A stretch of 64,000 nucleotides of DNA from Hymenobacter sp. 15J16-1T3B (GTDB lineage Bacteria > Bacteroidota > Bacteroidia > Cytophagales > Hymenobacteraceae), in the NCBI RefSeq assembly GCF_020711235.1, contig NZ_JAJFAV010000016.1:62001-126000 (forward strand), in the 5' to 3' direction. Under the pieces are notes generated by a model. That model was not told the DNA's origin. It ran no database searches and saw only the letters and a program-made list of their open reading frames with translations. Shown one piece after another: positions 51,863 to 52,246 of this stretch. A program made the translations under genes and the position numbers. Position 1 is the first letter of the stretch; every line of letters begins with the position of its first letter.

Positions 51863-51883
51863 GGCGGGCATCAGCGGCCCGCC
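51863..51883 (-). promoter_or_regulatory. Hairpin directly after the poly-Cys leader frame (possible attenuator)
   Basis: A perfect 7-bp GC stem (51877-51883 with 51863-51869) begins eight bases after the leader frame's TAG and is followed by a pyrimidine-rich stretch with scattered T. A ribosome stalled on the Cys codons would stop short of it but could mask the sequence just upstream. The T run is weak, so its role as a terminator is uncertain. Confidence 0.45.
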
Positions 51884-51890
51884 GGGCGCA

Positions 51891-51929
51891 CTACCAACAA
51901 CAGCAACAACACATCAGGGCGCCGCGCAT
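51891..51929 (-). CDS. Candidate cysteine-sensing leader peptide
   Basis: On the minus strand an ATG at 51929 encodes MRGALMCCCCCW and ends in TAG: five consecutive Cys codons (TGT TGT TGC TGT TGT) and one Trp codon right before the stop. It lies between the SAM riboswitch and metY. The same frame is open from an earlier ATG at 52049, just after the riboswitch, giving a 52-residue version (start MSHYPLTSDHQLSPL), with a further ATG at 51944. Runs of one codon in a short frame before a hairpin are the hallmark of amino-acid-sensing leader peptides such as those of trp and his operons. The sensed amino acid here would be cysteine. No experiment supports this; translation is inferred. Confidence 0.55.
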   Translation of the reverse strand: MRGALMCCCCCW

Positions 51930-52058
51930 CTGCTGCGGGCGCATTCGGGCGCTTTCGGCGGCGGGGGCGGCTACGGTCAAGCCGGTAGCGGGCGCCGCTG
52001 CGGAAAGCGGTGACAACTGATGGTCGGATGTGAGGGGGTAGTGGCTCATGGCACGCGG

Positions 52059-52177
52059 TTTATTTTTCCCCTTTCTGAAATGGTCAGCGGGGCAGGATTT
52101 GGCACCTGCCGGCCTGTGCGTTGCCGGTGGTTGCCAGAGGGTCACGGAGCCTAGTCTCTCGCCTCTTCGGAATAAAT
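52059..52177 (-). ncRNA. SAM-I riboswitch of the metY-metX-hom operon
   Basis: The minus-strand RNA shows the conserved SAM-I core in order: AAGAGGCGAGAGAC, then a loop with GGCTC, TGACCCTCTGGCAACC, and after a variable P3 arm the GGTGCCAAATCC motif. The outer P1 helix can be drawn with TTTATTCC on the 5' side and GG..AATAAA on the 3' side, which sets the ends given; they are approximate. It begins about 30 nt after the predicted transcription start. Binding SAM should lower expression of the downstream genes. A short open frame can start ten bases after its 3' end. Confidence 0.9.
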
Positions 52178-52215
52178 GCGTCAAAAAAGAACCCGCGCCG
52201 GAAGCACGAGCGGCA

Positions 52216-52246
52216 CAAAGGTAGCGCCGGTTATGTAAAACGCAAA
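52216..52246 (-). promoter_or_regulatory. Promoter of the met operon leader
   Basis: The minus strand reads TTTG (52243-52246), exactly 19 nt, then TACCTTTG (52216-52223): a full match to the Bacteroidota consensus. The transcript would begin near 52209. Confidence 0.85.

Follow-up and report, generated by a model that had tools for sequence, protein, structure and literature searches.

Does the leader ahead of metY in this Hymenobacter genome respond to SAM only, or does it also report the supply of cysteine through a short translated frame? The question is raised by a SAM riboswitch that is followed, within one leader, by an open reading frame ending in a run of cysteine codons. Here we examine this arrangement in the window, the whole 64,000-nucleotide stretch of DNA that was analyzed, and in its relatives.

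Organization of the metY leader

The leader and the operon that follows it are made up of these features:

52216..52246, minus strand: Bacteroidota-type promoter, TTTG-N19-TACCTTTG, an exact match to the consensus
52057..52178, minus strand: SAM-I riboswitch aptamer (Rfam RF00162) with a type-A (A-U only) P1, CAUUUAUU ... AAAAUAAA
52057..52065, minus strand: 3' strand of P1, inside the initiation region of the leader ORF, about 8-16 nt 5' of the start codon (from sequence)
51891..52049, minus strand: leader ORF of 52 codons, MSHYPLTSDHQLSPLSAAAPATGLTVAAPAAESARMRPQQMRGALMCCCCCW and a stop; start and CCCCCW-stop ending conserved in congeners, indels in frame
51897..51911, minus strand: five putative regulatory Cys codons, TGT TGT TGC TGT TGT, identical in all 8 congeners
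51863..51883, minus strand: hairpin 1, GGCGGGC-N7-GCCCGCC, 7 nt past the stop codon (from sequence)
51838..51862, minus strand: C/U-rich, G-poor tract CCCACCCTTCCTCGCTTTCTTGTTT, a candidate Rho utilisation region; CCYACCCYT kept in 8 congeners
51817..51837, minus strand: hairpin 2, GCCGCCCGG-CTG-CCGGGTGGC; one-sided changes only
50295..51683, minus strand: metY, O-acetylhomoserine sulfhydrylase (TIGR01326, 677.9 bits); start set by relatives (MSTQNLHF)
48910..49941, minus strand: metX, homoserine O-acetyltransferase (TIGR01392, under the curated cut-off, E 1.8e-105)
47661..48932, minus strand: hom, homoserine dehydrogenase (NF004976, 302 bits)

The initial annotation had described a consensus promoter, a SAM-I aptamer at 52059-52177 and the gene order metY-metX-hom, and each of these was borne out. 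When both strands of the window were searched for TTTG-N18-20-TAnnTTTG, based on the published TAnnTTTG consensus (PMC9723704), a single match was returned, TTTG-N19-TAnnTTTG at 52246-52216. The aptamer was recovered at 52178-52057 on the minus strand with 61.3 bits against RF00162 (gathering threshold 44.4) and was the sole Rfam match within the window, and the gene order was confirmed by HMM.

The leader ORF (52049-51891; MSHYPL...MRGALMCCCCCW and a stop) starts with an ATG at 52049, 7 nt past the aptamer, and its Cys codons at 51911-51897 are followed by TGG and then TAG. The ending of five Cys codons, Trp and TAG had been annotated correctly, but the extent of the frame had not: the annotated frame, 51891-51929, begins at an internal Met and covers just the last 12 of the 52 codons. 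The excess of TGT in the run had been called unusual in so GC-rich a genome, and it is: TGC and TGT stand at 1:4 in the leader ORF and at 130:7 in the genes of the window (Fisher, 1e-4, although P values are inflated because the sequences are related and give a rough guide only). The same bias was seen in GC-rich relatives, where leader Cys codons were UGU 217 to UGC 142, against 7 to 130 in the window genes. The CCCCCW-stop ending was kept in all eight Hymenobacter congeners tested, and the Cys run itself had identical nucleotides in all eight; seven other genomes of the genus retain the ORF with this ending even where the remaining peptide has diverged. Loss of the run in close relatives, named in the initial annotation as a refutation, was not observed.

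Several observations suggest that the frame is read. On the sequence comparison, the start of the leader ORF is tied to the aptamer, lying 6-11 nt from it in 99 of 105 loci and 7-9 nt from it in 87 of the 105. Frame-blind alignments of close relatives gave indels that were multiples of three in 24 of 26 cases, and third positions took 38% of the changes, slightly more than the other positions; this pattern is expected if the frame and its ending matter while the rest is free to vary. Among 104 leader ORFs, the final residue is Cys in 78, the last Cys is at most two residues from the stop in 103, and the median Cys count is five. The ten residues that precede the Cys cluster are rich in Met (13.6% versus 1.5%) and Arg (14.4% versus 4.3%), a hint that the leader may respond to Met codons as well. 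Motifs such as RMRM and MCMC reflect this strong enrichment. A short ORF bearing the regulatory codons of the pathway, as in a leader-peptide attenuator, is thus present, with both frame and codons supported by comparison.

Distribution across Bacteroidota and target genes

Named GTDB genomes were searched for MetY homologues, whose leaders were collected without reference to the Cys run, and the aptamers in them were located with a covariance model built for this analysis. A Cys ORF was required to start at most 30 nt from the aptamer and to carry at least three Cys among its last nine residues. This search of homologous leaders, which the initial annotation had put forward as a check, showed that aptamer and Cys-ending frame recur together across Bacteroidota: a Cys ORF followed the aptamer in 63 of 76 metY leaders, compared with 0.73 expected from dinucleotide shuffles. 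The genera concerned include Hymenobacter, Pontibacter, Rufibacter, Mucilaginibacter and Chryseolinea, and the arrangement was also found in MAGs labelled Adhaeribacter, Cyclobacteriaceae, Bernardetiaceae, Haliscomenobacteraceae, Flavobacteriales and Flavobacteriia.

The presence of the Cys ORF followed the type of P1. Across 207 distinct SAM-I loci, type-A aptamers, with a UUUAU-type P1, carried a Cys ORF in 105 of 119 cases, whereas type-B aptamers, with a CUUAUC-type P1, carried none (0 of 88). Type-B aptamers precede metH, without a terminator and with the gene start nearby, or metB-like genes, with an intrinsic terminator in 13 of 13; metH, metB-like and metF genes were identified by reading their sequences, without HMM. 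The type-A exceptions came mostly from Spirosoma and Larkinella, which have a short ORF with a single Cys-Met (e.g., MLYSQQCMPARAY and a stop), and also from Algoriphagus. At several type-A loci of these three genera that have no poly-Cys, a short ORF still begins at the usual spacing, and the one-Cys-Met peptide of Spirosoma and Larkinella is possibly a reduced form of the sensor.

Some further features of individual loci were noted. At six Spirosoma or Larkinella loci (L139, L143, L147, L149, L158 and L174) the aptamer and the ORF start are kept and are followed by a QQCMPPA-like peptide and then a GC hairpin. In one genome (G458), two type-B aptamers (L230 and L231) precede cysteine-desulfurase-like and peroxiredoxin-like genes, as judged by eye. 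In some Hymenobacter a peroxiredoxin-like gene (YRGNWCPYCNVQLRAY) lies between the SAM/Cys leader and metY; the insertion was seen in L099, L117 and L118, and the same spacing of about 1.1 kb occurs in L114, L119, L121, L122 and L130. P4 is nearly absent from the aptamers of the cysH-type, permease and ATP-grasp/monooxygenase operons (L001:1501-1592, L003:1501-1593, L064:1501-1592 and L084:1501-1599, with a P4 of 3 nt in L064 and L001), and these still score 68-81 bits against RF00162.

The met operon, named as the target in the initial annotation, is not the only one. In the window's genome, three of the four SAM-I loci have a Cys ORF, the metH locus being the one without. The three precede metY, an amino-acid permease and a cysH/cysD/cysN-like sulfate-assimilation operon, which encodes a tetrapyrrole methylase and a flavodoxin reductase as well as two PAPS-reductase-family proteins. 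In relatives, a further Cys-ORF leader stands before a protein without a Pfam match and a luciferase-like monooxygenase. This ATP-grasp/monooxygenase operon is probably an organosulfur operon; we take its luciferase-like monooxygenase to be linked to sulfone use. Neither metH nor metB-like genes were preceded by a Cys-ORF leader. No SAM-free poly-Cys leader was found before cysE/cysK in the window's genome, and the other CCCC-stop frames of that genome proved to be short or unconserved, with no clear target gene.

Taken together, the eight congeners, the metY leaders and the division between type-A and type-B aptamers support the core of the initial annotation, namely, a SAM aptamer coupled to a leader peptide that would report charged tRNA-Cys. 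As judged from this comparison, the leader is very probably a conserved dual sensor of SAM and cysteine, and the arrangement of aptamer and Cys ORF is a phylum-wide module of soil and water Bacteroidota.

Proposed mechanism and alternative readings

An intrinsic terminator after the leader ORF was considered as a general feature and is ruled out, since a loose finder returned terminator-like sites in only 10 of 104 Cys-ORF leaders, compared with 13 of 13 metB-like type-B leaders. The annotated GC hairpin at 51863-51883 exists, but a terminator role for it is not supported; it has no U-tract, and its 100-nt stretch folds no better than shuffles (z +0.57). Hairpins 1 and 2 jointly have 90% of cells paired across the 8 congeners. 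Covariation around them, which the initial annotation had looked to for support, did not provide it: the eight congeners showed one-sided G-C/G-U changes and no two-sided covariation in either hairpin. No terminator or antiterminator directly after the aptamer, the usual SAM-I platform, was found in the Cys-ORF class, and RNAalifold on six clade alignments returned no shared anti-terminator fold. Local structure is slightly enriched just 5' of the Cys run, over the stop and 30-73 nt past the stop. In Hymenobacter, the pyrimidine excess 12-37 nt past the stop is 0.60, versus 0.27 when shuffled; outside Hymenobacter the tract is weaker or absent, and it is not significant in the sampled family loci. 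A rho gene is present.

Comparison thus supports the linkage of aptamer and ORF, their fixed spacing, the conserved frame, its Cys end and the lack of an intrinsic terminator. From these we infer two inputs acting in series. The leader ORF has its A/U-rich initiation region in the 3' strand of P1, and therefore the P1 helix would itself be the expression platform. Lying at about -16 to -8 of the ORF, this strand would be sequestered when SAM binding closes P1, so that ribosomes could not start the leader ORF. The second input would be the terminal Cys cluster, which Met and Arg codons often precede. With little SAM present and the leader ORF being translated, scarce charged tRNA-Cys would keep the ribosome waiting on the last codons, where it covers the stop codon as well as the edge of the next hairpin. 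The waiting ribosome would melt the stop-proximal hairpin and shield the pyrimidine-rich tract, and transcription would proceed into metY (or cysH, the permease and others). If the ORF were untranslated (SAM high) or quickly finished (Cys plentiful), the tract would be exposed and transcription would terminate early, most likely via Rho. The lack of an intrinsic terminator, the pyrimidine tract of Hymenobacter and the presence of rho lead us to favor Rho-dependent attenuation, for which CruR offers a parallel (PMC9426467).

We consider this complete scheme, with SAM-gated initiation, stalling at Cys codons and Rho-dependent termination, to have an even chance of being correct. The nature of the targets, which are sulfur-supply genes, supports it. 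Expression only when SAM and Cys are both low would be surprising for metY unless the cell makes cysteine from homocysteine. The gating step also calls for caution. In the predicted ligand-free minimum-energy fold of the window leader, part of the aptamer pairs with the ORF start, which argues against an open start in the absence of SAM; codons 2-3 (AGC CAC), on which this pairing depends, are different in some relatives (e.g., L085 and L086). In some Mucilaginibacter, whose early leader codons are AT rich, these codons were seen by eye to pair with the 3' strand of P1; as a general feature such pairing was rejected.

The same two sensors could alternatively act through a final step that does not involve Rho, either translational, with the metY start being freed, or by classical attenuation, with a weak intrinsic-type terminator being avoided. 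The structured regions near the Cys run, at the stop and 30-73 nt past it are as expected of competing hairpins, and in Mucilaginibacter a GUGUUG/AACAC alternative to the downstream hairpin can be drawn by eye. However, U-tracts are lacking, there is no consensus fold across clades, and in the AT-rich clades that were folded the stretch just 5' of the metY start is mostly open and A/U rich. We regard a Rho-independent final step as possible but rather unlikely.

Other readings dispense with tRNA-Cys as the signal. Within the nascent peptide, the Cys cluster might sense metal, redox state or sulfide, much as CruR, which controls Rho termination, detects copper with its CXXC (PMC9426467), and a peroxiredoxin gene does stand between leader and metY in some Hymenobacter. 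This is improbable, given that the targets are sulfur-supply genes, that contiguous terminal Cys runs of variable number and spacing would lie largely inside the ribosome tunnel and that the UGU bias speaks for decoding and not for chemistry. That the UGU-UGU-UGC run is instead an RNA element, a pairing partner or a protein site, would agree with its identical nucleotides in all eight congeners, but elsewhere UGU and UGC interchange, other codons interrupt the Cys codons (CCCCACCC, MCMCCCC, CCCCMPMRRACC) with the frame of the ORF kept every time, and indels preserve that frame; we judge it quite improbable. Finally, poly-Cys-like frames do arise in a GC-rich genome (of 11 stop-ended runs looked at, none had a clear target gene), but a chance frame behind an ordinary SAM-I riboswitch that alone controls metY is contradicted by the 63 of 76 leaders against 0.73 expected and by 105 of 119 against 0 of 88, and we discount it.

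Returning to the preferred reading, codon sensing of charged tRNA-Cys under SAM control, these leaders may form a hierarchical class in which SAM would gate translation of the ORF and Cys, perhaps with Met, would set the fate of the ribosome, giving AND-type control of sulfur-supply genes and SAM-only control of methionine-only genes; we hold this generalization as likely to fail as to stand. It yields a prediction within one genome, that is, dual leaders on sulfur-supply genes and SAM-only leaders on methionine-only genes. If true, it would explain how the two end products of sulfur assimilation are coordinated without a regulatory protein and would constitute a natural serial two-input RNA device. 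Little is known of attenuation mechanisms in Bacteroidota, for which it would also provide one of few leader-peptide systems open to test.

Relation to known systems

SAM-I (S-box, RF00162) is among the best-studied riboswitches, and in a whole subclass of it the start of a leader peptide appears to serve as expression platform, together with codon-based sensing of cysteine. The aptamers described here share the sequence, fold and sulfur/methionine targets of SAM-I but differ from the usual members in that P1 is A-U only, neither a terminator nor pairing directly with the gene start was found, and the strand responsible for switching in the usual members here holds the initiation region of the leader ORF. 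Integration of two signals in one leader is known from Salmonella mgtA, where the sensing of ions is joined to a leader peptide that senses codons, with Rho acting as well; it relies on Pro codons, however, and has no SAM aptamer.

Cysteine-responsive attenuation by poly-cysteine leader ORFs has been described in mycobacteria (Canestrari et al. 2020, as cited in PMC13236596), and for such ORFs in Actinobacteria no conserved terminator hairpin was found and Rho was suggested (Seliverstov et al. 2005, PMC1262725). These attenuators resemble the present leaders in having a short ORF with Cys codons adjoining the stop (here 78 of 104 end in Cys) before sulfur genes, but the mycobacterial ORFs are leaderless, belong to another phylum and have no riboswitch described, whereas here a full SAM aptamer precedes the ORF. 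The uORFC-8-2 motif upstream of cysS in Rhodobacterales has tandem Cys codons and was proposed to act by Cys-tRNA attenuation (PMC8632094); unlike the leaders studied here, it has an intrinsic terminator, two Cys codons, a preference for UGC and no aptamer. In Mycobacterium tuberculosis, B12 riboswitches likewise share a leader with uORFs, whose translation alters the output (PMC11260477), but the uORF is not described as sensing a second metabolite through a codon run, and the ligand and phylum differ. In CruR, arrest on a copper uORF controls Rho-dependent termination before the next gene (PMC9426467); copper is sensed by the CXXC nascent protein and no riboswitch is involved, unlike in the SAM/Cys leader. 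Within Bacteroidota, the main text of a flavobacterial transcriptome study mentions leader-peptide attenuation before amino-acid operons, without detail (PMC9723704). Our search, which covered the open full-text literature, returned no description of a SAM-I aptamer combined with a Cys leader peptide. The parts are known singly, and what appears to be new is a riboswitch that would gate a ribosome-based sensor.
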